From assembly GCF_013004105.1 (NCBI RefSeq), contig NZ_CP053085.1, forward strand, positions 2,046,001-2,110,000: a DNA stretch of 64,000 nucleotides, read 5' to 3'. Made by a program: the position numbers and the translations under genes. Source of the DNA: Gemmatimonas groenlandica. GTDB taxonomy: Bacteria > Gemmatimonadota > Gemmatimonadetes > Gemmatimonadales > Gemmatimonadaceae. This document shows positions 1 to 47,931 of the stretch, piece by piece. Every line of letters begins with the position of its first letter. The first letter of the stretch is position 1. The notes beneath the pieces are model-generated. The model did not search any database. It was not told the DNA's origin and saw only the letters and a program-made list of their open reading frames with translations.

Positions 1-341
1 CACCACGAGCAGAAGCCCTTCAGCACGATGAACTCGCCGTACTTGAGCCGCAGCGTGAACAGCACCGCCGGCCAGATCATCAACTGCATGAGCGTATTCG
101 GCCACGTCTCGTCTTCATACTTGGCCATCGTGCCGATCGTGGCGGCCACGAACAGCATCGCGTAGCCCACGGCGCCGATCAGGGCCACGTCGACGCCCAG
201 AAACCACCCGTAGCGGCTGCCCTGCACATACTCGCATCCCCCGGCGCTGCTGCAGCCGAGTGCGCCGGTGAGGCCGAGCTTCCAGAGATGCAGATAGAGC
301 GCGACCAACCCGGAAATAAGGCTGCCCAACGCGATGCCCAT
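1..341 (-). CDS. Vitamin K epoxide reductase (VKOR)-family membrane protein, C-terminus cut by window edge
   Basis: Reading leftward from an ATG at 341, the translation is open to the window edge (about 113 residues) and begins MGIALGSLISGLVALYLHLW. It shows the VKOR pattern: a first transmembrane helix, then a Cys pair (LGCSSAGGCEYV), SRYGWFLGVDVALIGAVGY, further hydrophobic helices, and the start of a FCSW segment where the family's CxxC redox motif sits at the cut end. Bacterial VKOR homologues re-oxidise periplasmic disulfide-forming proteins (DsbB-like role) using quinone. An upstream in-frame GTG could add four residues. The C-terminus is missing, so a fused thioredoxin domain cannot be excluded. 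Confidence 0.75.
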   Translation of the reverse strand, partial: MGIALGSLISGLVALYLHLWKLGLTGALGCSSAGGCEYVQGSRYGWFLGVDVALIGAVGYAMLFVAATIGTMAKYEDETWPNTLMQLMIWPAVLFTLRLKYGEFIVLKGFCSW

Positions 342-12149: not shown

Positions 12150-12241
12150 CGCGGTCGACTCGCGTGGCCAGCCTTCGTCTGGACTCCGTGGTCTTATTCG
12201 CTGAAACCATCCCGGCTCGGGGTGCGTACGCCCCCCTGTCT

Positions 12242-13753
12242 ATGTCCTCCACCCGCTTCGTCCCCATGAGAATTCACGCATTCGCGCTCGCGCTCGGCCT
12301 GGCTGCAGTCGGGACCGTTCCGGCGCTCGCCGCGGCGCAGACCGCCCCTGCTCCGGGGGCTGTCATCACGTTGACAGACGCCCTCGCACTCGCGCGCCGG
12401 AATAATCCTGCGCTGCAGACCTCCACCAATGCCCGACGCACGGCGGCAGCCGCCGTCCGCAGCGCGAAAGGCGCGTTCCTGCCCAGTGTGAATTCGAGCT
12501 TGGGCGGCGGCTATCGCGAAGGACGTCAGACCTTTTTCCAGGGTCAGGCATTCGGTTCCACGAACGATCAGCTGTCCACCGACGCGGCGGTCAGCGCCAA
12601 CCTGCAGCTCTCGCTCGCCACGCTGAACGACAAGCGCGCAGCACAGGCCAATCAGAACGCGACCGAAGCCGACATCGCCGCCGCCGAGCAGCGGGTCCGC
12701 AACGAAGTCACCAATCAGTATCTCACGGCGCTGCAGGCGCAGGCCCGCGCCGCCCTCCAGGATACGTTGCAGGCCACCACACAGACGCAGTTGCAGTTGG
12801 CCCGCGCGCGTCTCCAGGTCGGTTCCGGCACGCAGCTCGACGTGCAGCGCGCCGAAGTGGCCGATGGACAGCAGCGCGTGGCCTCGCTGAACGCGCGCAA
12901 TCAGGCGGCCATCGAGATCGTGCGGCTCTTCCAGGCGATCGGCATCGATGCCGCGCCCGACGCAAAGCTCGACGCCAACCTCGCGGCCCCGCCGGCGATC
13001 GATCTCGCCGCCATTCTCGAAATGGCGCGTCGCACCAATCCGGCGCTCGGCTCGTTCCGCGCCCGTGAAGAGTCGGCCCGCCGCTCGCAGGCGTCGGCGC
13101 GCAGCGCGTACTTTCCGTCGCTCTCGCTGTCGGCCAACGTCTCGGCCTTCACGAACCGCTTCACCAATACGGGACTGCTGATCAGCCAGAGCCAGGCCAG
13201 CACGCTCGGCGCCAAAGCCTCGTGCATTCGCAGTGAGGAAGTGCGCGATCGCCTCGGCCTCACGAACAATCTGGCCCAGTGTAATGCGATCACCTTCACG
13301 CCGTCGCAGGAAGACGCGATTCGCACGGCGCAGAGCAAGTACCCGCTCGACTTCACGCGCAATCCGTACTCGCTGTCGGCGTCGTTCTCGCTGCCGATCT
13401 TCAACGGCTGGCGTCGCGAGCAGCAGGTCGAGCAGGCCAGTGTGCAGCGCCGCAATGCGCAGAATGATGTGCGCGGACAGGAGCTGCGCGTCACGGCCGA
13501 CGTGACGTCGGCGTACCTCTCGCTGAGCACGGCCCGGCAAACCGTCGTGCTGCAGGAACAGAACGTCCGCACCGCGCGCACCGCACTCTCGCTGGCGCAG
13601 GAACGCTATCGCGTCGGCGCCATCAGCATCGTGGACCTCGTACAGGCCCGCGGTGACTACGAGCGCGCCGAGACCGACCGTATCACTGCTGTATACGATG
13701 TACAACGGGCATTCGCGGCGCTTGAAAATGCCGTCGGCCGTCCCATCCGCTAA
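12242..13753 (+). CDS. TolC-family outer-membrane efflux protein
   Basis: About 503 residues. An N-terminal signal peptide (MRIHAFALALGLAAVGTV, ending ALAAAQ) precedes two OEP repeats, each with long coiled-coil helices rich in Ala, Gln, Arg and Glu. Family-typical phrases are ITLTDALALARRNNPAL, GSGTQLDVQRAEV, YSLSASFSLPIFNGWRRE and YRVGAISIVDLVQARGDYE. It forms the outer-membrane channel of a tripartite exporter whose adaptor, ATPase and permeases follow. Starts at 12242 (MSSTRF) and 12266 (MRIHAF) are both possible, and neither has a clear ribosome-binding site. A two-Cys insertion (SCIRSEEV and AQCNAITF) lies near residues 327-350. Confidence 0.9.
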   Translation: MSSTRFVPMRIHAFALALGLAAVGTVPALAAAQTAPAPGAVITLTDALALARRNNPALQTSTNARRTAAAAVRSAKGAFLPSVNSSLGGGYREGRQTFFQGQAFGSTNDQLSTDAAVSANLQLSLATLNDKRAAQANQNATEADIAAAEQRVRNEVTNQYLTALQAQARAALQDTLQATTQTQLQLARARLQVGSGTQLDVQRAEVADGQQRVASLNARNQAAIEIVRLFQAIGIDAAPDAKLDANLAAPPAIDLAAILEMARRTNPALGSFRAREESARRSQASARSAYFPSLSLSANVSAFTNRFTNTGLLISQSQASTLGAKASCIRSEEVRDRLGLTNNLAQCNAITFTPSQEDAIRTAQSKYPLDFTRNPYSLSASFSLPIFNGWRREQQVEQASVQRRNAQNDVRGQELRVTADVTSAYLSLSTARQTVVLQEQNVRTARTALSLAQERYRVGAISIVDLVQARGDYERAETDRITAVYDVQRAFAALENAVGRPIR

Positions 13754-13765
13754 CAGAGACCAGTC

Positions 13766-15052
13766 ATGACGAAAGGCGTAAAGTTCGGGATCGGCGGCGT
13801 CGTAGTGATCGCCGTTGCAGCCCTTGCAGTGATCAGCGCGAAGAAGAACAGCACGAAGCCGGTGGAAGTGCGCACCGAAGCCGTTGAAGCCCGCGACCTC
13901 GTGGCCTCCGTCACGGCCAGCGGACAGATCCAGCCGCGCACCAAGGTTGATGTGTCGGCCGACGTAACCGGCAAGATCGTGCGTCTTTCCGTGAAGGAAG
14001 GTGACATCGTGAAGAAGGGCCAGTTCCTGTTGCAGATCGACCCCGAGCAGGTCACGGCCGCCCTTCAGCGCTCCGAGGCGTTTCTCGCGTCGTCGCGTGC
14101 CCAGTCGGCGCAGTCCCGCGCGAGCCTGCTGCAGGCCCAGCGCAACTACGAGCGCTCGCTCAAGATCAAGCAGCAGTCGCCGGAACTCGTCAGCGACGAA
14201 CAGCTCGAGCAGCTCAAGACGCAGGCCGACGTGAACAAGGAATTGGCGGCGGCCGCCAGCTTCAGCGTTGACCAGGCCGTGGCCTCGGTGCGCGATGCCC
14301 GCCAGGCGCTCAACCGCACCACGATCACCGCGCCGATGAGCGGCAAAATCACTCGCCTGAACGTCGAAGAAGGCGAAACGGCGATCATGGGTACGCTGAA
14401 CAAGGACGCGGCGACCCTCATGACGATCAGCGATATGAGTGTGCTCGAAACGAAGGTGAAGGTCGACGAGACCGACGTCGCACGCATCAGCGTGGGTGAC
14501 TCGGCCCTCATTCAGATCGACGCCTTCCCGGACACCACCTTTGTGGGCCGTGTGGTCGAAATCTCGAATAGCTCGGTCACGAAGTCGGCTGCCGCCAACA
14601 CCGGCGACCAGGCGATCGACTACGAAGTCCGCGTCGAGCTCGTGAACCCGCCGCAGGACACCCGCCCCGACTTCTCGGCGACCGCGAAGATCGTGACGGC
14701 GTCGCGGACCAAGGTGCTCAGCATCCCGATCATCGCCCTGACGGTGCGTGAGAACGAGAATCTCCCGAACGGCGACTCGGCCGTGACGGTAGGCCGCCAG
14801 CCGGCGAAGGAAGTCGGCAAGCGTGACGTGGAAGGCGTGTTCGTGGTCGGTACCGACAACAAAGTCAGCTTCCGCCCCGTAAAGGTCGGAATCGCCGGAG
14901 AACGTCATTTCGAAGTGCTCGACGGACTGAAGAGCGGCGAGACCATCGTGGCCGGCACCTATCAGGCGATCCGTGAACTCAAGGACGGCGCCATGATCAA
15001 GACGGCGAAGGTGGAAGAGAAGAAGGCGCCAGCAACCGGAAAGAAGCCGTGA
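13766..15052 (+). CDS. MacA-like periplasmic adaptor (HlyD/RND membrane-fusion family)
   Basis: The 428-residue protein has one N-terminal membrane helix, then a split biotinyl-lipoyl domain ([20 protein letters not shown] and, after the hairpin, [19 protein letters not shown]). A long coiled-coil hairpin lies between them, and beta-barrel and membrane-proximal domains end in [20 protein letters not shown]. This is the adaptor that links a MacB-type permease to TolC. It starts 12 bp after the TolC-like gene and overlaps the ATPase gene by 4 bp (GTGA), so the three are clearly co-translated. The cargo is not indicated by the sequence. Confidence 0.9.
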
Positions 15053-15855
15053 GCAACACTCTCGACGATATCGGACTCAGCACCACGGGGGAGCGCCAGG
15101 CGGTTACGACCGCCGCTGGTGCCGCCCCGGGACAGGACTGGGTCATCGTGACCCGTCAGCTGAAGCGACAGTACGACATGGGTGGCGAAATCGTCCGCGC
15201 ACTGCGCGGCGTCGATCTCGCCATCCGGCGCAACGAATACGTAGCCATCATGGGACCCTCGGGCTCGGGCAAGTCGACGCTCATGAATCTCATCGGCTGC
15301 CTCGACACGCCGAACGAAGGTGAGTACTGGCTCAACGGCATGCTGGTGAGCACGATGACCGACGATGCGCTCGCCCGCGTGCGCAACAAGGAAATCGGAT
15401 TCGTATTCCAGACCTTCAACCTCCTGCCCCGCGCCTCGGCGCTGCAGAACGTCGAACTCCCGCTGGTCTACGCCGGCATTTCGGCCGACGAGCGGAAGAA
15501 GCGCGCCACCGAGGCACTCGAGCGCGTGCAACTCGGTCAGCGTATGCATCACCGGCCCAACGAACTCTCCGGTGGTCAGCGTCAGCGCGTCGCGATTGCC
15601 CGTGCACTCGTGAACCGCCCGTCCATCCTGCTCGCCGACGAGCCGACGGGTAACCTCGACTCGCAGACCTCGGAAGAGATCATGCGTGTGTTCGAGGAAC
15701 TCGCAACGCAGGGACAGACCGTCGTCATGGTCACGCACGAACCGGACATCGCCGTGCACGCCAAGCGCATCATCGTGCTGCGCGACGGCGTCATCTCGAG
15801 CGACGAAACGCGCGCGCAGTACGCGGCCAAGATCTCCGGCGAGCGCGTACACTAG
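15049..15855 (+). CDS. MacB/LolD-type ABC transporter ATP-binding protein
   Basis: The 268-residue ATPase starts at a GTG inside the adaptor stop. It has Walker [14 protein letters not shown]-loop [10 protein letters not shown], signature [15 protein letters not shown], Walker [14 protein letters not shown] and H-loop VMVTHEP, the pattern of the MacB/LolD/FtsE export class. A hydrophilic N-terminal extension of about 30 residues precedes the domain. It is the only ATPase in this operon, yet eight separate permease genes follow. It presumably energises all of them, because none of the permeases carries its own nucleotide-binding domain as MacB does. Confidence 0.93.
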
Positions 15856-16004: not shown

Positions 16005-17252
16005 ATGCAGTTTTTCGAAGCCATTCGATTGGCCCTCAACACGATCCGTGTGCAGAAGCTCAAGAGCGCGTTTACGCTGCTCGGTGTCTGCATCGGTGTG
16101 ATGTTCCTGATCTCCGTCGTCTCGATCGTCGAGGGGATGGGGCGGTACATGGAAGAGGACCTGATCGGCAAGCTGATCGGCGTCAACACGTTCGAGTTGC
16201 GCAGTCGCCCCAACATCAACATCGGCGACATGGATGAGGCCACCTGGGAAGAGTACCGGCGACGGCCACGACTCGAACTAGTCGATGTTGCACCGGTCAC
16301 CAGCGCACTACCGACCGACGCCAAGTGGTACATCACCAGCGAAGATCAGGTCGCCATCACCTCCGCGACCAGCGGGAAGCCGCGTACCACGCGGGTGTTT
16401 GCGGTGGATGGTCAGTATTTCGACGTGAAGAATCTCGGCGTGACCGCCGGCCGCATTCTCTCGGAGCAGGAGCTCTCCCGTGGTGAGAAGTCGGTGGTGA
16501 TCGGCATCGATGCCGCCGAACGACTTTTCCCCGGTCTCGATCCGCTCGGTCGCGAACTCAAGATGGGTGGCGTCCCCTATCGCGTGGTTGGTGTGGCCGA
16601 GTCGCAAGGCAAAGCATTCGGTATGTCGTTCGACAACTTCATCGTGACGTCGTGGCGTTCACCGGCGCGCCGATTGCTCAACTCGCGGCCGAACATTGTC
16701 GATGCGGTGGCGATTCAGTCGCCAAGCCCCGAGGCGATGACCGAAACCATGGAGATCGTGCGGTCGGTGATGCGCGCGCAGCGTCATCTCCGTCCGTCGC
16801 AGAAGGACAACTTTGCGCTGCAAACCGCCGACTCGGCGCTGGAGTTCTGGAACAAGATCAAGAGCTATCTCGTGCTTGCCGGCATCGCGCTCCCCGCGAT
16901 CGGTCTCGTGGTCGGTGCCATCGTCATCATGAACATCATGCTCGTCGCCGTCTCCGAACGCACACGAGAAATCGGCATACGTAAAGCACTCGGTGCCAAG
17001 CGTCGCGATATCCTGATGCAGTTCCTGATCGAAGCTTCGACCCTTGGCATCGTGGGCTCGGCGATCGGCGTCGCCCTCGGCATCGGTCTCGCCGAAGGGA
17101 TCTCGGCGTTCTCTCCGCTGCCGGCCAGCGTGGCACCGTGGTCCATCGTGGTCGGAATCGCGCTAGGTGCCGGCGTCGGTGTGGTGTCCGGCGTGTATCC
17201 CGCCAGTCGCGCGTCGCGGCTGGATCCGATCACGGCCCTGCGGCAGGAATAG
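16005..17252 (+). CDS. MacB/FtsX-family permease, type A, copy 1
   Basis: A 415-residue permease with the MacB layout: one N-terminal helix (FTLLGVCIGVMFLISVVSIV), a MacB_PCD-type extracytoplasmic domain (about residues 45-285), and a C-terminal FtsX domain of three helices with IVIMNIMLVAVSERTREIGIRKALGAKRRD and the ending YPASRASRLDPITALRQE. The N-terminus RLALNTIRVQKLKSAF defines what I call type A in this operon. It is separated from the following type-B gene by only 3 bp, suggesting an A/B heterodimer that moves substrate from the membrane or periplasm toward TolC. Confidence 0.9.
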   Translation: MQFFEAIRLALNTIRVQKLKSAFTLLGVCIGVMFLISVVSIVEGMGRYMEEDLIGKLIGVNTFELRSRPNINIGDMDEATWEEYRRRPRLELVDVAPVTSALPTDAKWYITSEDQVAITSATSGKPRTTRVFAVDGQYFDVKNLGVTAGRILSEQELSRGEKSVVIGIDAAERLFPGLDPLGRELKMGGVPYRVVGVAESQGKAFGMSFDNFIVTSWRSPARRLLNSRPNIVDAVAIQSPSPEAMTETMEIVRSVMRAQRHLRPSQKDNFALQTADSALEFWNKIKSYLVLAGIALPAIGLVVGAIVIMNIMLVAVSERTREIGIRKALGAKRRDILMQFLIEASTLGIVGSAIGVALGIGLAEGISAFSPLPASVAPWSIVVGIALGAGVGVVSGVYPASRASRLDPITALRQE

Positions 17253-17255
17253 CAC

Positions 17256-18509
17256 ATGTCTGCATTCACTACGCGCCTGTCCGCCGTCGCCGAGGGCGTA
17301 CGTATCGCGCTCGATGCCGTACGCGCGAACAAAGTTCGCGCCGGTCTCACGATTCTCGGTATTGCCGTGGGTGTGTTCGTCGTGGTCGCCATATCAGCCG
17401 CGATCCACGGTATCAATCAGTCGGTGGCCAGAGACTTCGCGAGTACCGGGCCGACGACGTTCTTCGTATCTCGCTATCCGATCAGTTTTGAAAATTGTGA
17501 CGGCTCCGACGGTACCTGCGCGTGGCTCCGTAACCCGCCTATCCGCCCGAACGAGATCGAAAGCCTTCGGCGCCTGCCAAGCATAGAGTCCGTGGGCGAG
17601 CGACTGGATTGGGGGACGAAGGTCAAGTATCGCGAGCGCGAATTGCCGTCGGCGAGCATCGAAGGCTACAGTGCCGAGTGGACCACGATCAGCGCCCCGG
17701 AAGTATATCCGGGTCGGGCCTTCACGAGCGCCGAAGCGCGTACGGGCGCGCGCGTCGCGGTGATCACCACGCTGATGGCCACGCGGCTGTTCGATGGATC
17801 CGATCCGATCGGCAAGTCGGTCACACTGAACGGCGTGCCGTTCGAAGTGATCGGCGTGTACAAGGACAACAGCAGCTTCCTGTCGGGCGGTGAACGCCCG
17901 AAGGCCGTGATTCCCGTGCAGTCGCTCATTCGCTACGTGGGGGCTCGAGCCAGCGGGATCTCGCTCGCGGTCAAGCCACGCGAAGGCGTCGCGCGTGACA
18001 TCGCCCTCGATGACGTGACGGCCACTCTGCGCGGTATGCGCGGAACGCGGCCGGGCGGCGAGTCGTCGTTCGCCATCATCACGCAGGACAAGTTGCTCGA
18101 CACGTACAATAGCATCTTCGGCATGTTCTTCTTGGTCATGATCGCGCTGTCGGCGGTTGGCCTGATTGTCGGTGGCGTTGGTGTCGTCGCGATCATGATG
18201 ATCTCAGTCACCGAACGGACCCGGGAAATCGGTGTGCGCAAAGCGCTCGGCGCGACCAAGGCCACGATTCTCTGGCAGTTCCTGGTGGAGGCGGCCACGC
18301 TCACCGGCATTGGCGGTGCCATTGGTCTGTTCGTGGGATGGCTGGGCGCGCTCGGCATCCGGAGCTTCACGCCCATTGAGGCGAGTATCCCACCGATGGC
18401 CGTTGTCGTGGCGCTCGGCGCCAGTGCAGTGACCGGTATTCTCTTCGGCATGCTGCCCGCCAGTCGCGCGGCGCGTCTCGATCCCGTCGAAGCGCTTCGC
18501 TACGAGTAA
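17256..18509 (+). CDS. MacB/FtsX-family permease, type B, copy 1
   Basis: 417 residues, with the same four-helix permease plan as its neighbour but of a distinct subtype. The N-terminus reads GVRIALDAVRANKVRAGLTI then VGVFVVVAISAAIHGINQ, and the end is LPASRAARLDPVEALRYE. The extracytoplasmic domain carries a short Cys-bracketed motif, NCDGSDGTC (codons at 17496-17519), which recurs in two other type-B copies and may form a small disulfide loop. The FtsX core ISVTERTREIGVRKALGAT is intact. It has no ATPase domain and depends on the upstream ATPase. Confidence 0.9.
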   Translation: MSAFTTRLSAVAEGVRIALDAVRANKVRAGLTILGIAVGVFVVVAISAAIHGINQSVARDFASTGPTTFFVSRYPISFENCDGSDGTCAWLRNPPIRPNEIESLRRLPSIESVGERLDWGTKVKYRERELPSASIEGYSAEWTTISAPEVYPGRAFTSAEARTGARVAVITTLMATRLFDGSDPIGKSVTLNGVPFEVIGVYKDNSSFLSGGERPKAVIPVQSLIRYVGARASGISLAVKPREGVARDIALDDVTATLRGMRGTRPGGESSFAIITQDKLLDTYNSIFGMFFLVMIALSAVGLIVGGVGVVAIMMISVTERTREIGVRKALGATKATILWQFLVEAATLTGIGGAIGLFVGWLGALGIRSFTPIEASIPPMAVVVALGASAVTGILFGMLPASRAARLDPVEALRYE

Positions 18510-18520
18510 TCGGAGACCAC

Positions 18521-19756
18521 ATGCCTTTCATGGAAGCTGTCCGGCTAGCCCTCGCCACGATCCGCGTGCAGAAGCTCAAAAGCTTTTTCACGCTCATCGG
18601 CGTCACCATCGGCGTGATGTTCCTGATCGCCGTGGTGTCGATCGTCGAGGGCATGAGTCGATACGTGGAGAACGATTTCGCCGGTAAGCTGTTCGGCGTG
18701 AACACGTTCACCCTGCGTCGGTGGAATGACTTCAATACCGACGACAATCTCGACTGGCGCGAGATTCAGCGTCGGCCGCGGTTGTTCGCGTACGACGCGG
18801 ATCTGGTGCGCTCGGTGCTGCCTCCAGGATCTTCGTCGGCGATCACGAACGAGACGTTCATGAACGCGAACTCGCCCTTCGCCCGTCCTCGACAGGTACA
18901 GGCCGTCGCGACGGAAGCCGCCTACTTCACGATCAAGAAGTTCAACGTCACGCTCGGGCGTGCCTTTGGTCCGCAGGAAGTGAACATCGGCGCGCGTGTG
19001 CTCGTGATCGGTGTCGACGTGGCCGAGCACTTCTTCAAAGGCCTCGACCCGATCGGCCGCGAGCTGCGCATGAACGGCGTGCCCTATGAGGTGATCGGCG
19101 TGATCGAAAAGCAGGGATCGGTGTTCGGCTTCTCGCTCGATAGACTGGCGATTGCGCCGTACACGAGTCCCCTGCACCGCGCGATCCGGCCGCGGGGGGA
19201 CATCGAAGCGATGATCGTGCAGGCCCCCACCAAGGATCTAGTATCCGACGGTATGGATGCCGCGCGCGAGGCGTTGCGGGCCTCGCGAAAGATGCCTCCT
19301 GGCAAAGCTGACAACTTTGCGCTCGAAACACAGGACGAAGCGATGGCCTTCTTTGACGGCATCAAGTCGAAGATGGTCATCTTCGGCACGGCGCTGCCCG
19401 CCATCGGTCTGGTCGTCGGCGCGATGGTGATCATGAACATCATGCTGGTGGCAGTTGCCGAGCGGACACGTGAGATCGGCGTGCGTAAGGCGCTTGGTGC
19501 GCGACGCCGTGACATCATGTCGCAGTTCCTCGTTGAATCGGCTACGCTGAGCGTGGTAGGCGCAGCAATCGGCATCGGGCTGGGGATCGGCTTGGCGGCG
19601 ACCATTGCCGCGCTGACACCACTGCCGGCGGCGGTGGCACCGTGGTCGATCGTGGCGGCACTGGTGGTCGGTGCTGGCGTAGGCATTGCGGCCGGTATCT
19701 ACCCGGCGAGCCGGGCAGCCCGGCTCGATCCCATCACAGCTTTGCGGCAGGAATAG
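18521..19756 (+). CDS. MacB/FtsX-family permease, type A, copy 2
   Basis: 411 residues and close to copy 1 along its whole length: EAVRLALATIRVQKLKSFF, GVMFLIAVVSIVEGMSRYVE, the periplasmic FKGLDPIGRELRMNGVPYEV, and the FtsX core VAERTREIGVRKALGARRRD ending in YPASRAARLDPITALRQE. It follows the first B gene after 11 bp and precedes the second B gene by 2 bp. Its periplasmic domain differs most from copy 1 around residues 60-130 (for example NDFNTDDNLDWREIQRRPRL), which is where substrate or adaptor specificity would be expected to lie. Confidence 0.9.
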   Translation: MPFMEAVRLALATIRVQKLKSFFTLIGVTIGVMFLIAVVSIVEGMSRYVENDFAGKLFGVNTFTLRRWNDFNTDDNLDWREIQRRPRLFAYDADLVRSVLPPGSSSAITNETFMNANSPFARPRQVQAVATEAAYFTIKKFNVTLGRAFGPQEVNIGARVLVIGVDVAEHFFKGLDPIGRELRMNGVPYEVIGVIEKQGSVFGFSLDRLAIAPYTSPLHRAIRPRGDIEAMIVQAPTKDLVSDGMDAAREALRASRKMPPGKADNFALETQDEAMAFFDGIKSKMVIFGTALPAIGLVVGAMVIMNIMLVAVAERTREIGVRKALGARRRDIMSQFLVESATLSVVGAAIGIGLGIGLAATIAALTPLPAAVAPWSIVAALVVGAGVGIAAGIYPASRAARLDPITALRQE

Positions 19757-19758
19757 CG

Positions 19759-21024
19759 ATGCGATTCGTGGACCGTATTCTCCTCGCGTTGGAAGGCATC
19801 GGCATGGCGCTCGATGCTATCCGGGCCAATAAGGTGCGCGCCGGTCTCACGATTGCCGGGGTGGCGATCGGTGTGTTCGTGGTGGTGGCGATGGGCGCCA
19901 CGGTGCATGGCATCAAGCAGAGCTTCCAGTCCGACCTCGATGAGTTCGGCGCCACGTCGTTCCAGGTGAGACGGCGCGGCGTGGGCATCAACACTTGCGA
20001 CGGCTCCGACGACAGCTGCCCGGAACGGCGCAATCCGGCCATCTCGCTCGTCGAGTGGCGCGCGATTGCCGATCTCCCCGAGGTGGAGACGGCCACGGCC
20101 TGGTTGTCGGGTCAAAGCAACTTCGATTACCGCGATCGCCACGTGACCAACGTGGGCTACGACGCGCAGAGCACTGACTGGATCAAGACCGACGTCGCCG
20201 ACATCTCGCCAGGCCGAAGCTTCTCCGGCTCGGAGCATGATGCGGGCGCTCAGGTGGTCCTTGTGAACGACACGCTGAAGAATCGTCTGTTCGGCGACTC
20301 CGACCCGATCGGCAAGCAGATCGCCATCGAAGGGAAGCAGTTTACGGTGATCGGCGTGTTTCACACCAAAGCCGGCTTCCTGAAAACGATGGATGGGCGC
20401 GGCCCCGATAAACCGCGCGCCATCCTGCCCATGATGACCGCGTACCGGCACCTCGACGTGTGGCGTCGGGGACTCATGATGATGGTGAAGCCCCGCGGTA
20501 ACGTGGCGCAGGCGCAGGTGATGGACGACGTGACCGAGCTGCTCCGTTCGCGCCGCGGTTTGAAGCCGGGACAGATCAACAACTTTGCCCTGGTCGCTCA
20601 AGACCGGATGATGGAGACGTTCGACCAGCTGTTCGGCGCGATCTTCATGGTCGGGCTGGCGTTGTCGGCGGTCGGACTGCTAGTGGGCGGCGTGGGGGTG
20701 ATCGCGATCATGATGATCTCCGTGACCGAGCGAACCCGTGAAATCGGCGTGCGGAAGGCCTTGGGAGCCACTCGTGCGACGATCCTGTGGCAGTTCCTCG
20801 TCGAGGCGGCCACCCTCACGTCGATCGGCGCCTCGGTGGGGCTCATCATCGGCAGCATCCTCGCGTGGGTCGTGCGGACCAACACACCCGTTCCCACGTC
20901 CATTCCAGCTTCTGCGATCATCACGGCGATCGCGGCCAGTATCGCCACCGGCGTCATCTTCGGCATGCTGCCCGCACTGCGTGCCTCTCGCCTCGATCCG
21001 GTGGAAGCGCTGCGGCACGAATAG
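19759..21024 (+). CDS. MacB/FtsX-family permease, type B, copy 2
   Basis: 421 residues from ATG 19759 (MRFVDRILLALEGIGMALD), two bases after the previous stop; the frame is open upstream, but that part lies within the preceding gene. Type-B signature: IRANKVRAGLTIAGVAIGVF. The motif TCDGSDDSC (19996-20019) matches the Cys-bracketed element of copy 1. FtsX core VTERTREIGVRKALGATRAT, end LPALRASRLDPVEALRHE. It is predicted to be the partner of the type-A gene just before it. Confidence 0.9.
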   Translation: MRFVDRILLALEGIGMALDAIRANKVRAGLTIAGVAIGVFVVVAMGATVHGIKQSFQSDLDEFGATSFQVRRRGVGINTCDGSDDSCPERRNPAISLVEWRAIADLPEVETATAWLSGQSNFDYRDRHVTNVGYDAQSTDWIKTDVADISPGRSFSGSEHDAGAQVVLVNDTLKNRLFGDSDPIGKQIAIEGKQFTVIGVFHTKAGFLKTMDGRGPDKPRAILPMMTAYRHLDVWRRGLMMMVKPRGNVAQAQVMDDVTELLRSRRGLKPGQINNFALVAQDRMMETFDQLFGAIFMVGLALSAVGLLVGGVGVIAIMMISVTERTREIGVRKALGATRATILWQFLVEAATLTSIGASVGLIIGSILAWVVRTNTPVPTSIPASAIITAIAASIATGVIFGMLPALRASRLDPVEALRHE

Positions 21025-21047
21025 CAGAGGGCGGCTATTATTCAGGG

Positions 21048-22289
21048 GTGAAGACACGAGACGCCATTGGGCTGGCACTGACCCAGATTCGAGTTCAGAA
21101 ACTCAAGAGCGCCTTTACCCTGCTTGGGGTGACCATTGGCGTCATGTTCCTCATCGCCGTGGTCTCCATCGTTGAAGGGATGGGCCGATACGTCGAAGAG
21201 GATTTTGCCGCGCGCCTGATCGGCAGTAACACCTTCACGTTACGACGGTTCAGCAACGTGGGGCCCGGCGGGAATCGCGGCTTTGATGCGCGTTCCGCCC
21301 AGCGACGACCGCTGATCCGCATGCCGGATGTCGATGCAGTTCGGGCCGCGATCCCGGCCACGATGACGTCCAGCATCGCGAGCGAGACGTTCAAGTACGC
21401 ATCCGCGCCAGGCGCTCGTCCGCGTCAAGTGCAAGCCGTGGCGACCGACGCGAACTATTTCGACATCAAGAACTTTCCGGTGACCGTTGGCCGGGCCTTT
21501 ACCGATCAGGAAGTTCGCGCCGGCGCGCGCGTGATCGTGATCGGCACGGAAGTCGCTGAGCACTTTTTCCCGGGCCTCAATCCGGAAGGCCGCCAACTCC
21601 GCGTCGCGGGCGTTCCGTTTACCGTGATCGGCGTTATCGAGAAGCAAGGATCGGTGTTCGGATTCTCACTCGATCGCAATGCAATCGCGCCATACACGTC
21701 GCCGATGGGCCGCATCATCCGTCCGGCGCGGGACGTCTCCTCGCTCATCGTGCAAGCCCCAACGCAAGCCGATCTTCCCGACGGGATGGAGGCGGCGCGC
21801 GGTGCGCTCCGCTCCTTGCGCGGACTTCGAGCGGGAGAGCCGGACGACTTCGGCCTCATCACACAGGACGCCGCCTTCGGTTTCATCAAGCAGCTGAAAG
21901 GACGCCTTGTGCTCTTCGGCACGGCGCTGCCGGCGATCAGTTTGGTCGTTGGTGCCATGGTGATCATGAACATCATGCTGGTTGCCGTTGCCGAGCGCAC
22001 GCGCGAGATCGGCGTGCGGAAAGCACTCGGTGCCAAGCGGGCTGATATCATGTCGCAGTTTCTCGTCGAGGCGGCCACGCTGAGTACGCTCGGTGCCGCG
22101 ATCGGTATCGGATTGGGAATTGGCCTCGCAGAGATCATCTCGGTGCTGACCCCGCTCCCGGCGGCCGTCGCGCCCTGGTCGATTGCTGCGGCATTGGTAA
22201 CCGGTGCCGGGGTCGGCATTGCCGCCGGGCTGTACCCCGCCAGTCGCGCCTCGCGTCTGGATCCCATCACGGCGCTACGCCAGGAGTAA
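21048..22289 (+). CDS. MacB/FtsX-family permease, type A, copy 3
   Basis: 413 residues from a GTG at 21048 (preceded by CAGGG), reading VKTRDAIGLALTQIRVQKLK. The longer open frame upstream lies inside the previous permease gene. Type-A features are GVTIGVMFLIAVVSIVEGMG and periplasmic EGRQLRVAGVPFTVIGVIEK; the FtsX core VAERTREIGVRKALGAKRAD and end YPASRASRLDPITALRQE follow. It is nearest in sequence to type-A copy 2 (shared EKQGSVFGFSLDR and IAPYTSP), so these two A copies probably came from a more recent duplication. Confidence 0.9.
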   Translation: MKTRDAIGLALTQIRVQKLKSAFTLLGVTIGVMFLIAVVSIVEGMGRYVEEDFAARLIGSNTFTLRRFSNVGPGGNRGFDARSAQRRPLIRMPDVDAVRAAIPATMTSSIASETFKYASAPGARPRQVQAVATDANYFDIKNFPVTVGRAFTDQEVRAGARVIVIGTEVAEHFFPGLNPEGRQLRVAGVPFTVIGVIEKQGSVFGFSLDRNAIAPYTSPMGRIIRPARDVSSLIVQAPTQADLPDGMEAARGALRSLRGLRAGEPDDFGLITQDAAFGFIKQLKGRLVLFGTALPAISLVVGAMVIMNIMLVAVAERTREIGVRKALGAKRADIMSQFLVEAATLSTLGAAIGIGLGIGLAEIISVLTPLPAAVAPWSIAAALVTGAGVGIAAGLYPASRASRLDPITALRQE

Positions 22290-22293
22290 TCGT

Positions 22294-23550
22294 ATGAATC
22301 GATTCTTACTGGTCTTCGAAGGCGTTGGGATGGCGCTCGAGTCCATCCGGTCGAACAAGGTGCGCGCGGCCCTGACTATCGCCGGCGTGGCCATCGGTGT
22401 GTTCGTGGTTGTTGCGATGGGCGCCGTCGTGAACGGCATTCGCGCGTCGTTTCAGCAGGACCTCGAACAGATCGGCGCGACCACGTTTATCGTGCAGCGA
22501 CGGAGTTCGGGCATCAGCGGGTGCGATGGTACCGACGAGAAGTGCCCGGATCGGAGCAACCCGCCGATCTCGTTTGCCGAATGGGACATGATCAAGCGCA
22601 TTCCGGGCGTCGAGAATGTCATCGGGGTGCTTGGCGGCCAAGGCAACTTCGCCTATCGGAACAGCCGCGTGGACAACGTGGGCTATGACGCGTACAGCGT
22701 GGAATGGCCATCGGTCGACGCCTCGGATATTTCCCCGGGACGCAATTTCACGCGCGCCGAGTACGACGCCGGACAGCCGGTGGTGCTCGTGAACGACACC
22801 CTCAAGGCGCAGTTGTTTGGCGAGTCGGAAGCGATCGGTAAGCAGATCATGATCAGCGGCCGACAGTTCACGGTGATCGGCATCTACGCGCCGAAAGCCG
22901 GCTTTCTGAAGTCACTGGAGGGAAAGGGTCCCGACACCCCGCGGGCGATCATTCCCATTCAAGCGGCCGTGCGCAGTCTCGATGTATGGCGCAACAATCT
23001 CAGTCTGTTGGTGCGTCCGTCGAAGTCGGTGACGCAGGGCGAGGTGATGGACGAGGTACTGGCATCCATGCGCGCGCGCCGCGGCTTGCGCCCGGGCGAC
23101 CGCGCGACGTTCTACCTGGTCGAGCAGGATCGCCTGATGGATACGTTCAACCAGCTCTTCGGCGCGATCTTCGCCGTGGGGTTGGCGTTGTCGGCCGTGG
23201 CGCTGCTGGTCGGCGGTGTCGGCGTCGTCGCCATCATGATGATCTCGGTTACTGAGCGCACGCGTGAGATCGGTGTACGCAAGGCGCTTGGTGCGACGTC
23301 AGGCACGATTCGCTGGCAGTTCCTGGTGGAGGCGGCCACCATGACCAGCATTGGGGCGTTCGTCGGCCTCGGGCTTGGCGCGTTGCTCGCGTGGGTCATC
23401 CGTACGAACACATCGATTCCGGCCACGCTCCCCGGCAGTATTGTAGCCACCGCACTCATCGCCAGCGCGGTCACGGGCGTTGCCTTCGGCATGCTCCCGG
23501 CGATGCGCGCGTCGCGGCTGGACCCGGTGGAGGCACTCCGGCACGAGTAG
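22294..23550 (+). CDS. MacB/FtsX-family permease, type B, copy 3
   Basis: 418 residues from ATG 22294 (MNRFLLVFEGVGMALESIR), four bases after the previous stop. It is close to type-B copy 2: IAGVAIGVFVVVAMGAVVNG, the shared VDNVGYDA/VTNVGYDA segment, and KQIMISGRQFTVIGIYAPKAGFL matching the KAGFLK segment of copy 2. It carries the third Cys motif, GCDGTDEKC (22522-22545). The FtsX core and LPAMRASRLDPVEALRHE end are intact. Copies 2 and 3 of both types therefore look like a duplicated A-B pair. Confidence 0.9.
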   Translation: MNRFLLVFEGVGMALESIRSNKVRAALTIAGVAIGVFVVVAMGAVVNGIRASFQQDLEQIGATTFIVQRRSSGISGCDGTDEKCPDRSNPPISFAEWDMIKRIPGVENVIGVLGGQGNFAYRNSRVDNVGYDAYSVEWPSVDASDISPGRNFTRAEYDAGQPVVLVNDTLKAQLFGESEAIGKQIMISGRQFTVIGIYAPKAGFLKSLEGKGPDTPRAIIPIQAAVRSLDVWRNNLSLLVRPSKSVTQGEVMDEVLASMRARRGLRPGDRATFYLVEQDRLMDTFNQLFGAIFAVGLALSAVALLVGGVGVVAIMMISVTERTREIGVRKALGATSGTIRWQFLVEAATMTSIGAFVGLGLGALLAWVIRTNTSIPATLPGSIVATALIASAVTGVAFGMLPAMRASRLDPVEALRHE

Positions 23551-23559
23551 CCGCTCACC

Positions 23560-24804
23560 ATGCGCTTCTCCGACATCATCCGCCTGTCGCTCCTGCAGCT
23601 GCGCGTGAACCCCATGAGAACGGCGTTCACCCTGCTGGGCATCGTGGTGTCGGTCGGTTTTCTGGTGGCGGTCGTGGCGATCATCCAGGGGATGAACGCG
23701 TATGTGAAGGAGAACATCGCCGACGCGATGATCGGCATGAACACCTTTCAGGTCCGACGGTTGCCGATCAGCCTCGGGCTCTTCACCGACGACCAGTTCC
23801 GGCTGCTGCAGCGGCGCCCGCGCGTGGATGAGCGCGACGCTGCGGCGGTTCGCGAGGCACTCCCCGACGCGCTGGCGATCTCGCTGCAGTCCGGTTGGCC
23901 GACACCGCAAGCGGACGTCGTGTGGCGCGACCGCACAATTGGCAGCGTGCAGATCTTCGGCGTCACCGCCGGCTATCAGGTCGTGCAGGACTATCGCTTC
24001 ACCGAAGGACGGCCCCTCAGCGACATCGACGTGCGTGAGCGGCGCAATGTGATCGTGGTCGGTGCCGATATCGCGCAGAAGCTCTTTCAAGGCGCGTCCG
24101 CCATCGACAAGGATGTGCGCCTGATGGGGCAACGCTACACGATCGTGGGCGTGGTGGGGCGGAAGGGCCGCGTGCTGGGGCAATCATTCGACGGCTTTGC
24201 CCTGATGCCGATTTCCGCTTTTGAAGCGATCTACGGGCGACGGCAGAACACGACGATCTCGGTCAAGATGCGCGAGGCGACCGAGGTCGGCCCGGCAATG
24301 GCGCGCGCGCAGGAAGCCATGCGACTCGCGCGTCGCTTGCGTCCATCCGATCGCGACAACTTCGATGTCGGCACCGCCGATGCGCTGGTCGATTTCTGGA
24401 AGCAACTCACCAAGGTGCTCTTCGCCGTGGTCCCCGCCGTCGTGGCGATCGGTATTCTCGTGGGCGGCATCGTCATCATGAACATCATGCTGATGGGCGT
24501 CACGGAACGCACGCACGAGATCGGACTGCGGAAAGCCGTGGGGGCGACATCGGCCGATGTGCGACGGCAGTTCCTCGCCGAGGCGGTGGCGCTGGCGATC
24601 TGTGGTGGTCTACTCGGTGTCGCCGCAGGCTGGGGTCTGGCCGCCGTCATCGCGGCGTTCTCTCCGCTGCCCGCCCGCGTCTCGCTGTGGAGTGTCGGTC
24701 TGGCGCTGTCACTTGGTGCCGGCGTTGGCGTGCTGTTTGGCGTGTACCCGGCCTCGCGAGCCGCCAAGCTCGATCCGATCACCGCCATGCGCGCGGAGAC
24801 CTGA
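23560..24804 (+). CDS. MacB/FtsX-family permease, type A, copy 4 (divergent)
   Basis: 414 residues. The type-A plan is kept but the sequence is more divergent: LLQLRVNPMRTAFTLLGIVV, VAVVAIIQGMNAYVKENIAD, and a periplasmic domain containing WPTPQADVVWRDRTIGSVQIF. The FtsX core reads GVTERTHEIGLRKAVGATSAD, with His replacing the usual Arg, and the end is YPASRAAKLDPITAMRAE. It pairs with the last type-B gene, which starts 3 bp after its stop. This pair is the outlier among the four and may be the oldest member or have a different cargo. Confidence 0.9.
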   Translation: MRFSDIIRLSLLQLRVNPMRTAFTLLGIVVSVGFLVAVVAIIQGMNAYVKENIADAMIGMNTFQVRRLPISLGLFTDDQFRLLQRRPRVDERDAAAVREALPDALAISLQSGWPTPQADVVWRDRTIGSVQIFGVTAGYQVVQDYRFTEGRPLSDIDVRERRNVIVVGADIAQKLFQGASAIDKDVRLMGQRYTIVGVVGRKGRVLGQSFDGFALMPISAFEAIYGRRQNTTISVKMREATEVGPAMARAQEAMRLARRLRPSDRDNFDVGTADALVDFWKQLTKVLFAVVPAVVAIGILVGGIVIMNIMLMGVTERTHEIGLRKAVGATSADVRRQFLAEAVALAICGGLLGVAAGWGLAAVIAAFSPLPARVSLWSVGLALSLGAGVGVLFGVYPASRAAKLDPITAMRAET

Positions 24805-24807
24805 GTC

Positions 24808-26055
24808 GTGAGCCTCCGAGTCGGTGCATTTGGCGAGAACCTGCTCATCGCGTTCGATGCGATTCGGGTGAACAAGCTGCGCTCGTCGCTCACGATTCTC
24901 GGCGTGGTCATCGGCGTGGCAACCGTCATGGCGATGGCCGCCATCGTGGAAGGCATCCGCTCACAGATCGTGACGACGATCGAGGTCGCGGGGCCCACCA
25001 CGTTCTACGTGATGAAGAAGTTCTCGCAAACGCCGCTCAATCCGGACAACCTCCCGAAGGAGGTGCGCATCCGTCCGGATCTCTCGGAAACCGAGGCCGA
25101 ACGACTGCGCCGGCTGCCGGAGATCGCGTACGCCTCTCTGTGGGCACAAACGCTGGCGCGCATCGAATCGGAAGGTGTGCGTTCACAGTCGATGGCCATC
25201 TTCGGAGCCGACGACGGCTTCACCCGCATTCAGGGCGGCGAACTGGTGGAGGGCCGCTGGTTTACGCGCAACGAGCTCAGTTCTGGAGCACCGGTGGTCG
25301 TGCTTCAGGATGAAACGGCGCGTCGTTTGTTCGGACGCGAGCGCATGCTGGGACGGCAGGTACAGATTGGTGGGCGTCCGCTGGTCGTGATCGGACTATG
25401 GCAGGAACCTGGCAACATCTTCGCACCGCCCGGGCAGGCCGTCGGCGCGGTGGTGCCATACAAGTTCATGGCCCGCAGCTACACGATCGACAAGACCAAC
25501 GCGCTCTGGATTCCGGTCAAGCCACGGGCCGGTGTGAGCGTGGCAGATGCGCAGGGCGCGGCAGTGATGGCGATACGCGAAATGCGCGGCCTGCGACCAG
25601 GCAGTACGAACAGCTTCGACCTGGTGACACAGGACCAGATCCTCGACACGTTCAATGGCATCACGAGTGTGTTCTTTCTCGTCATGATCGTGCTGTCCGG
25701 CGTGGCCCTGCTGGTGGGCGGCATCGGGGTGATGGCCATCATGACGGTGTCGGTGACGAGCCGCACCCGCGAGATCGGTGTGCGCAAAGCCCTGGGCGCG
25801 ACACGCAACGACATCCTGCTGCAGTTTCTCATCGAGGCCTGCACGCTGACGGGCATCGGCGGGCTGATCGGAATTCTCGTCGGCCTCGCGCTTGGCCGCG
25901 TGGCGTCCTTTGCGCTCGAGATCTCGGCGCCAGTGCCCGTGTCGCTCACGGTGATTGCCGTCGTGGTGTCGGTCGGCATCGGCATCATCTTCGGGCTGGT
26001 GCCAGCCCGCCGTGCGGCAAGGCTCGACCCGATCGAATCATTGCGCCACGAGTAG
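24808..26055 (+). CDS. MacB/FtsX-family permease, type B, copy 4 (divergent, no Cys motif)
   Basis: 415 residues from a GTG at 24808. The N-terminus LLIAFDAIRVNKLRSSLTIL is type B, followed by GVATVMAMAAIVEGIRSQIV. The CDG(S/T)D..C element found in the other three B copies is absent; the region reads PTTFYVMKKFSQTPLNPDN instead. FtsX core VTSRTREIGVRKALGATRND, end VPARRAARLDPIESLRHE. This is the last gene of the export operon. Its stop is 10 bp from the convergent puhE stop, so the operon abuts the photosynthesis cluster with almost no spacer and no obvious terminator. Confidence 0.9.
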   Translation: MSLRVGAFGENLLIAFDAIRVNKLRSSLTILGVVIGVATVMAMAAIVEGIRSQIVTTIEVAGPTTFYVMKKFSQTPLNPDNLPKEVRIRPDLSETEAERLRRLPEIAYASLWAQTLARIESEGVRSQSMAIFGADDGFTRIQGGELVEGRWFTRNELSSGAPVVVLQDETARRLFGRERMLGRQVQIGGRPLVVIGLWQEPGNIFAPPGQAVGAVVPYKFMARSYTIDKTNALWIPVKPRAGVSVADAQGAAVMAIREMRGLRPGSTNSFDLVTQDQILDTFNGITSVFFLVMIVLSGVALLVGGIGVMAIMTVSVTSRTREIGVRKALGATRNDILLQFLIEACTLTGIGGLIGILVGLALGRVASFALEISAPVPVSLTVIAVVVSVGIGIIFGLVPARRAARLDPIESLRHE

Positions 26056-46302: not shown

Positions 46303-47931
46303 ATGACGGCATTCGCCGATCCGCGTGTGCGCATGCGCGACGCGCTGCGCCAGCTCGTGGAACAGGACCCCACCGCGTGGGATGGGCCCTCATTGCTAAT
46401 CCTGCGCAACCGGCTGCTGGATTTCACCGGCAGTGACGCGCGTCCCCTGGCCGAACTGCTCATCGAAGCGCTGCGCCGCGGCTTCCGTGAGCGACTGCCG
46501 GAGGGCGCGTTGGAATCGGCGCGCTGGGACGCGCTGGTGGCGCCGTTCGTGATGCAATGGTCGGCCGAACGGTTCGTGCAGCCGGACATGGCGCGCTGGG
46601 CGGTGGAGTGCTGGGGCTACGCGCTGCGTACGATACAACCCGAGCAGCTCCGCATCGCGCCACCGCCCAAGCGAGAGCCGATTGCCGCGCTGGCCGCGCG
46701 ATTGAATGCGACGGCCGCCTCGAGTGGTGTGCAAGCCGCCCGCAGCGCTGGGCTCCAGCTTGCGGGCGCGCCACGCGCGAACCCGCGCGGGCCTACACGA
46801 GCCGCGCCGGCGCGTGTCGTGGCGTCGGGACCAGCGCGCAGCGCCACGCCGTACAAGCCGTACACGCCGTACAGCCCCCGGGCGCGGGTCGCTGCGCCGG
46901 CGATGAATCCGTGGATCGCACGCGGCATGGTCGGCGTGCTCGGGCTCATGGGACTGGGTGTGATCGTGCAGGCCGCGATCGCGACCCGGAATGCACCGGC
47001 GGTGCCGACGGAGCGTGTCGCGACAGTATCGGTCGCCCCGCCAACCGCCGATGCTCGCGCGGGTGCGGCCAACGCGCTGGTGCCCACGATTTCCAATCGC
47101 GTGGTGCCGCCGAGTCTGACCGGCGGCGTGACGATCAATGCACCGGCGAATCCCGGCGTGCCGTCGATCACCCGCGCGATGCTCCCTACCGGCGCCGATA
47201 GCGGACGGATGCTGTTCGTCGATCCCGCCCGTCGCGCTGTCGGCGATTCGCGGCAGGCGAACATTCCGATGGTGGCGTCGCAAGCCACGTACGACGAGGT
47301 GCACCTCGAGGACGGTACCACGATGCGCGGCCGCGTGGAGATCGTGCGGGCCGGTGCGGTGATCTTCCGCGACTTGCGCACCGGGCTGCGTCACGAGCTG
47401 CGCAAGGAAGAGATCAACGAAATCATCACGGAATTCGGGACGCCGGTGCGCTTCCGCGCGAACGCGGTGCGTAGTGCCGGTGGCCCGCCACGTACGCGCG
47501 CCATGGTCACGGCCGCGACCAATGCGGGGCTGCGCGCGCGCGGCGTGGGCGGATCCTATCGCATCCGCTACGCAGCGCCGGTAGCGGTGGGCTCCAGCGA
47601 ATGTGCGTCGGTATGGAGCCGCGCGCCTGATGCGGTGGACCGCGCCATCGTGCGCCATTTGCCGGGCGCCGACACGCTCACGCTGGCTTTCGATGCCGGC
47701 GACAATTTTCCGAGCAATGTCGATGCCGACGGATTCTTCGCGTCGACGTTTCGCATCGTGCCCGACCAGGCCCGCACCAGCACCGCGCTCACCACGCGAC
47801 TCACCGGTCAGTTCCGCGCCAACGGCTCGCTGGCGCTCACGGTGAACATCGTCTTCTTCCGTCGCGTGCGCAGCGGCGCCGATCTGGCCTGCACGGTGAC
47901 CGTAAAAGCAGAAGGCCAGCGCGAGTCCTAG
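46303..47931 (+). CDS. Membrane-anchored triad-associated protein (intact paralogue)
   Basis: 542 residues with the same plan as the gene before. The N-terminal helical domain contains LLILRNRLLDFTGSDARPLA and DMARWAVECWGYALR; it resembles the domain ending AVESWALALG that I recall from kinase/VWA-linked effectors. A linker rich in Ala, Pro and Tyr (PYKPYTPYSP), a membrane helix (GVLGLMGLGVIVQAAIA), a small beta domain (DEVHLEDGTTMRGRVEI) and a C-terminal domain with SSECASVW and a distal ACTVTV Cys follow. Its function is unknown; it is a likely substrate or output of the adjacent kinase and phosphatase. Confidence 0.75.
   Translation: MTAFADPRVRMRDALRQLVEQDPTAWDGPSLLILRNRLLDFTGSDARPLAELLIEALRRGFRERLPEGALESARWDALVAPFVMQWSAERFVQPDMARWAVECWGYALRTIQPEQLRIAPPPKREPIAALAARLNATAASSGVQAARSAGLQLAGAPRANPRGPTRAAPARVVASGPARSATPYKPYTPYSPRARVAAPAMNPWIARGMVGVLGLMGLGVIVQAAIATRNAPAVPTERVATVSVAPPTADARAGAANALVPTISNRVVPPSLTGGVTINAPANPGVPSITRAMLPTGADSGRMLFVDPARRAVGDSRQANIPMVASQATYDEVHLEDGTTMRGRVEIVRAGAVIFRDLRTGLRHELRKEEINEIITEFGTPVRFRANAVRSAGGPPRTRAMVTAATNAGLRARGVGGSYRIRYAAPVAVGSSECASVWSRAPDAVDRAIVRHLPGADTLTLAFDAGDNFPSNVDADGFFASTFRIVPDQARTSTALTTRLTGQFRANGSLALTVNIVFFRRVRSGADLACTVTVKAEGQRES

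Follow-up and report, generated by a model that had tools for sequence, protein, structure and literature searches.

How pumps of the MacB type recognise their cargo is described as little known (PMC5985334, excerpt) and as awaiting data (PMC8277102, excerpt of a review). In the excerpted review, Y315 and F320 of E. coli MacB are among the residues of a plausible erythromycin site, which lies mostly in the porter domain and faces the interdomain interface, and the β1-α1 loop is named as a second insertion hotspot of porter domains (PMC8277102). The excerpt on A. baumannii MacB describes a loop with helix Pα1 as the part that differs from the isolated domains and among MacB-family structures (PMC5673888), and for each MacB, two MacA domains are placed on its Sabre and one on its porter (PMC5985334, excerpt). 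In M. tuberculosis FtsX, also a type VII ABC permease, a C73-C78 disulfide and a short helix (63-69) near the start of the extracellular domain are reported as essential for the hook shape while locking RipC, and both are close in sequence to F61 of a Phe cluster that binds the partner (PMC10694151, excerpt). Here we analysed a stretch of 64,000 nucleotides from Gemmatimonas groenlandica (NZ_CP053085.1, positions 2,046,001 to 2,110,000), hereafter the window, in which three MacB-like permeases, B1, B2 and B3, carry a short acidic loop bracketed by two Cys.

By gene content, the locus is built like the MacAB-TolC pump: adaptor, outer-membrane factor and MacB-type ATPase share one gene cluster. 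It departs from known MacB in that the ATPase is a separate gene and that two permease types alternate in tandem. In an operon-like run, the outer-membrane factor, the adaptor and one ABC ATPase are followed by eight MacB-like permeases, each encoded by its own gene and some 415 residues long, in the order A1 B1 A2 B2 A3 B3 A4 B4, that is four A/B pairs. MacB_PCD and FtsX domains scored above the Pfam cut-offs in all seven permeases scanned (A1, A2, A4 and B1 to B4). Scanning five permeases, the E. coli-type MacB model NF007826, in which ATPase and permease are fused, matched the permease part only, with 143.6 to 193.9 bits against a cut-off of 966, and the ADOP model TIGR03434 (803 positions) gave 112 to 148.9 bits and did not reach its cut-off of 622.3. 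Members of the ADOP family also have paired MacB-like permease units, but in one chain, whereas ours are separate genes. Two different permeases also form one transporter in LolC/LolE (PMC9595528, excerpt), as the A and B proteins of the present locus may do.

The Cys loop of B1, B2 and B3

The translations of B1, B2 and B3 contain CDGSDGTC, CDGSDDSC and CDGTDEKC, respectively, and the three loops fall on one alignment position. A preliminary description of the window had placed these strings at equivalent sites of three type-B permeases, and had noted that all type-A copies and the fourth type-B copy lack them, which our alignment bears out. Only its nine-residue strings need an adjustment: the coordinates fit the eight-residue motif, while the leading N, T or G is encoded by the codon just before each quoted start. 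Each of the three proteins has exactly two Cys, both inside the motif. No Cys was found in the loops of A1 to A4 and B4; elsewhere in these proteins, A1, A4 and B4 have one Cys each (residues 29, 348 and 345, respectively) and A2 and A3 none. A degenerate DNA pattern of the motif occurred three times in the 5.18-Mb genome, only in the B1, B2 and B3 genes, with no occurrence on the other strand and none for a reversed control. Residues 56-110 are also free of Cys in L012, a further full-length MacB-like permease encoded at another place in the genome.

We then placed the loop on a structure predicted by AlphaFold2 for B1 (122-row alignment, mean pLDDT 91.6). The nearest solved structures to this model were MacB-family permeases (5xu1_M, Z 32.3 over 382 residues; 5gko_A, Z 23.3), and its predicted fold is that of the MacB proteins of E. 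coli, A. baumannii and A. actinomycetemcomitans (5nik, 5gko, 5lil). LolC/LolE matched as well (9rld_E, Z 25.6), but the "Hook" with which LolC recruits LolA is formed by residues 167-179, a hairpin in the Sabre domain (PMC8277102, excerpt), and not by the porter β1-α1 loop. In the model, the Cys loop lies between a strand (69-72) and a helix (98-105), residues 73-88 are neither helix nor strand, and a short helix (89-92) directly follows the second Cys. As modelled, the Cys loop is therefore the porter β1-α1 loop of the MacB fold, and the Pα1 loop of A. baumannii MacB would be the same loop.

E. coli MacB has the same β1-α1 loop, with a Tyr-Pro start in both proteins: in the sequence alignment, Y74-P75 of B1 meets Y315-P316, the E. 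coli residue numbers being counted from chain positions in the alignment. Unlike B1 to B3, the aligned loops of known MacB have no Cys. The preliminary description had suggested that the loop contacts adaptor or cargo. Since the loop aligns with a stretch of E. coli MacB that bears two residues of the putative substrate patch, this analogy favours a contact with cargo or a partner in the porter cleft; it does not favour the adaptor, which the loop may nonetheless touch. From the order of residues, the disulfide of M. tuberculosis FtsX would sit at the same β1-α1 junction. However, four residues separate its Cys compared to six here, its helix comes before the Cys and not after, and FtsX is a cell-division signal transducer and not a tripartite pump.

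Occurrence of the Cys pair in relatives

We searched species genomes with an alignment of B1, B2 and B3, using as seeds two stretches from the C-terminal domain and neither the loop nor the motif. The scan kept the best 80 of 408 relatives, corresponding to 79 loci; as relatives were ranked by likeness to B1, this set favours near kin. Conservation was counted over the window and these 79 loci, in frames that reached 85% coverage and 200 bits, a filter that removed the type-B frame L104. Loci fetched by the motif itself (L020-L049) were excluded from every conservation count. The resulting set contains 128 full-length type-B proteins. In 127 of them residues 56-110 include exactly two Cys, in the remaining one none, and a single Cys was never found. 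The same residues held no Cys in any of the 127 type-A, 36 A4 or 29 B4 proteins (0/192 together). With 127 of 128 proteins concerned, the Cys pair is not there by chance: it is a near-invariant mark of the type-B clade. Before filtering, 127 of 132 type-B frames had both Cys. Among the five others, L096 and L104 have lost the loop, L086 has no letters there, and L100 and L107 (122 and 51 bits, respectively) were set aside as other permeases. A C-x6-C arrangement anywhere in the untrimmed open frames was seen in 2/129 type-A and 5/34 B4, none of them in residues 56-110 once trimmed. One related locus, titled Gemmatimonas phototrophica, has 98% identity to B1 across residues 1-351.

When the loop columns were left out of the tree calculation, each of the groups B, A, A4 and B4 formed one side of a fully supported branch. 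As B4 belongs to another clade, in which no examined member has the Cys, the occurrence of the loop in three of the four B copies of the window is, judged by alignment and tree, a clade rule. Thus, the earlier claim that the motif occurs only in type-B permeases held in everything examined once it is limited to the B clade, B4-type proteins having none (0/29 here and 0/63 in other families). The DNA pattern of the motif matched in 129 of 395 Gemmatimonadota genomes; we did not use this number as a count of loops because the pattern admits other codons at the Ser/Thr place as well as stray frames, and some reversed controls also match.

The loop itself is nearly constant in length, and several of its flanking residues are strongly conserved. 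From Cys to Cys it measures eight residues in 126 of 131 loops, with six residues between the Cys in these 126, seven in 3 and five in 2. Position -8 is R in 119/126, position -3 is F, I, L or M in 124/126, and position -7 is Y, F or W in 83/126 and R in 37. After the second Cys comes N-P (N in 117/126, P in 122/126), with a W two residues after this Cys in 78/126. If the first Cys is numbered 1, then N, G, V, A and T are among the residues seen at positions 2, 5 and 6; position 5 can be D, G, E, V, A, T or S, so that the acidic places shift.

Outside the own family the picture differs. Among 119 type-B proteins from other Gemmatimonadota families (112 from stronger scan places and 7 from weaker ones), both Cys are present in 4, both absent in 115, and one alone in none. 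Wider alignments, in which the preliminary description expected the Cys to be conserved, therefore show conservation inside the own family (127/128) and not outside it (4/119). The weaker places gave 75 stretches, from which 63 B4-type and 7 type-B proteins were kept, while 2 repeats and 4 pieces starting past or inside the loop were dropped; no Cys was found in the loops of these 70. For type-A proteins of other families, 4/37 have one Cys in residues 51-115. A search of plasmids with B1 returned 44 records, all under 60% identity, and none of the 8 that we read, homologues from other phyla, has the Cys pair in the loop.

By contrast with the rare Cys pair, 52 of the 112 other-family proteins carry S-D-G-S-D-E-x-S or a close variant, of the same length and with Ser in place of either Cys. 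All 52 come from one sister family (f2), as do the four proteins with the Cys pair. The Ser/Ser label was set by our own motif, and 56/112 fit neither the Cys/Cys nor the Ser/Ser form. The Ser codons are mixed, TCC, TCT, AGC and AGT being one base away from a Cys codon, and TCG and TCA two. In deeper families little more than DG and a later W..(N/K)P is usually retained, and some lack even these. Since the acidic turn is found beyond the range of the Cys pair, it is probably older than the pair. One f2 protein with both Cys (L162, genome G154) was placed inside the own-family clade; given this placement, it may represent a transfer or a misbinned contig.

A probable intrachain disulfide and competing readings

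Pooling all 247 type-B proteins, both Cys are present in 131 and absent in 116, and one alone is never found. On a tree that combines 240 of these proteins with 29 of the B4 type, five changes of state of the pair were counted, four of them forced by well-supported (starred) branches; a quick IQ-TREE tree also gave five. Since there are acidic turns that lack Cys, and since both Cys come and go together, the pair is best read as an intrachain disulfide closing the loop. The Cys never being alone, the exported domain, and a genome with a VKOR-family gene and four Thioredoxin_4 (DsbA-like) matches elsewhere all argue for such a bond. As far as sequence can tell, the preliminary description was right to propose a disulfide-closed loop. 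The VKOR-family gene, of a disulfide oxidase family and a possible source of oxidising power for the staple, crosses the left window edge, some 17 kb away from the Cys loop of B1.

On these grounds we propose an explanation that we consider, taken as a whole, fairly likely though far from settled. A disulfide (C81-C88 in B1, C80-C87 in B2 and C77-C84 in B3) would close an eight-residue acidic turn in the porter β1-α1 loop of the B subunit, and would be formed in the periplasm via the VKOR and DsbA-like proteins of the genome. This bond would stiffen the loop into a rigid tip, its mostly bulky flanks directed at the cleft that separates the two periplasmic domains and may serve to handle cargo or a partner protein. 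Type-A and type-B subunits would assemble as heterodimers, with the stapled tip on the B side only. The staple would also preserve the shape of this tip as the periplasmic domains close upon ATP binding.

Several observations weigh against this explanation. First, the sister family f2, with its Ser/Ser form, has no such bond; as this family works without it, the disulfide is not essential to this type of pump. Second, two type-B members of the own family, L096 (10567-11823) and L104, lost the Cys loop by deletion and not by substitution. Third, the independent contrasts are few: both Cys change together in 4/4, which gives p 0.125 in a sign test, and with only four to five independent events this test cannot reach significance. 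Fourth, the flanks are not uniformly bulky, the charged R at position -7 being as common as F, and residues 81-90 of the B1 model (mean pLDDT 77) are among its less certain parts. Finally, in the comparison with E. coli, F320 corresponds to F78 of B1 by position only, and the excerpted review itself calls the substrate patch only "plausible" (PMC8277102). The 8 plasmid-borne homologues from other phyla have a shorter loop, so residue-by-residue equivalence is loose.

The disulfide could also be real but merely stabilise the fold, as an ornament of a variable loop with no role towards cargo or a partner. We regard this as rather unlikely, although it agrees with the excerpted reports that the site is a second insertion hotspot of porter domains (PMC8277102) and that the Pα1 loop is the part that varies among MacB-family structures (PMC5673888), as well as with the deletions in L096 and L104. 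It does not account well for flanks as strongly conserved as the R at -8 and the N-P after the second Cys.

The preliminary description had further suggested a possibly metal-binding loop. In such a loop, acidic side chains would serve as ligands, for example for calcium, and the Cys as a clamp. Most loops do have two or three acidic residues (two in 45/131 and three in 74/131), all 52 Ser-type loops have three, and the Ser/Ser consensus DGSDE resembles the LDL-A calcium motif. However, the acidic residues shift place, with positions 2, 5 and 6 variable, and 9/131 loops have only one, which leaves a metal site unsupported. Moreover, the sister family has Ser at both Cys positions and deeper families retain little of the acidic core, so we consider metal binding improbable. 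The LDL-A calcium module consists of six Cys in three disulfides. Having only two Cys per protein, B1 to B3 do not contain such a module.

A reversible redox switch, in which the pair would sense or be acted on by periplasmic redox proteins and thereby gate the pump, appears to us equally improbable. Strict pairing of the Cys and the VKOR and DsbA-like genes would suit it, but with six residues usually between them the two Cys do not match the CXXC of redox-active sites, and the Ser/Ser forms of the sister family are what is expected of a structural bond. A CXXC site has two residues between its Cys, and the spacings of five to seven found in the 131 loops rule it out. Lastly, intermolecular disulfides between protomers or to the adaptor are very improbable, since beyond two probably exposed Cys nothing speaks for them, residues 56-110 of the type-A, A4 and B4 partners offer no Cys to bond with, and Cys six residues apart that are gained and lost together suit an internal bond.

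The permease array and its A/B alternation

Table 1. Positions in the 64-kb window of the array genes, the Cys loops and the VKOR-family gene.
Feature	Position	Strand	Basis
VKOR-family gene (disulfide oxidase family)	1..335, cut by window edge	-	VKOR 1.1e-19, over cut-off
TolC-type outer membrane factor (OEP)	12164..13753	+	OEP 2.4e-52; start codon uncertain
MacA/HlyD-type periplasmic adaptor	13766..15052	+	HlyD_D23 5.9e-21; RND_mfp over cut-off
ABC ATPase of array	15049..15855	+	ABC_tran; best NCBIfam match is MacB ATPase part, under its cut-off
A1, type-A permease next to B1, its likely partner	16005..17252	+	Pfam domains; A/B alternation in relatives
B1, type-B MacB-like permease, 417 aa	17256..18509	+	MacB_PCD 1.6e-35, FtsX 9.3e-20; AlphaFold2 mean pLDDT 91.6
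B1 Cys-bracketed loop CDGSDGTC (C81-C88)	17496..17519	+	translation, alignment
A2, type-A permease	18521..19756	+	Pfam domains
B2, type-B MacB-like permease, 421 aa	19759..21024	+	Pfam domains
B2 Cys-bracketed loop CDGSDDSC (C80-C87)	19996..20019	+	translation, alignment
A3, type-A permease	21048..22289	+	outside the Pfam scan
B3, type-B MacB-like permease, 418 aa	22294..23550	+	Pfam domains
B3 Cys-bracketed loop CDGTDEKC (C77-C84)	22522..22545	+	translation, alignment
A4, type-A4 permease next to B4, its likely partner	23560..24804	+	Pfam domains
B4, type-B4 permease, loop kept but without Cys	24808..26055	+	Pfam domains; separate clade

Gene order in the relatives alternates strictly: we counted 147 A-to-B and 73 B-to-A neighbours, and neither A-A nor B-B. 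Within the 79 related loci, 24 consist of a single A B* pair and 21 of A B* A B* A4 B4 (the asterisk marking the Cys pair), some contigs being short, and 28/79 end in an A4/B4 pair. This alternation suggests that neighbouring A and B genes make heterodimers.

Directly after the array, positions 26066-60139 hold photosynthesis-type genes: DUF3623, a VWA/AAA protein, an O-methyltransferase, two nitrogenase-like oxidoreductases (one with PCP_red) and a CobN/Mg-chelatase subunit. Judged by these genes, the host is probably a phototrophic Gemmatimonas. In the same region, an open frame of 542 residues (46303-47931) had no Pfam match at E 0.001. No RNA family matched at gathering scores across the window. 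A search of the literature, covering titles and abstract openings, returned no paper on this loop or these arrays among the matches listed.

We can go one step further, and only tentatively, as we think the following idea has a rather low chance of being correct. The stapled loop would be the specificity tip of an asymmetric A/B heterodimer in which only B recognises cargo or a partner. The successive pairs would then be different pumps sharing one ATPase, adaptor and channel, and the unstapled A4/B4 pair would have another task.

Taking all our observations together, the Cys loop represents a variant, specific to one lineage, of a type of permease that is already known. In practice, it tells which subunit of the alternating pairs is which. 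It also means that a loop at a putative substrate patch is found disulfide-locked in one lineage and in a Ser/Ser form in its sister, which offers natural variants for testing how these pumps may handle cargo or partners.

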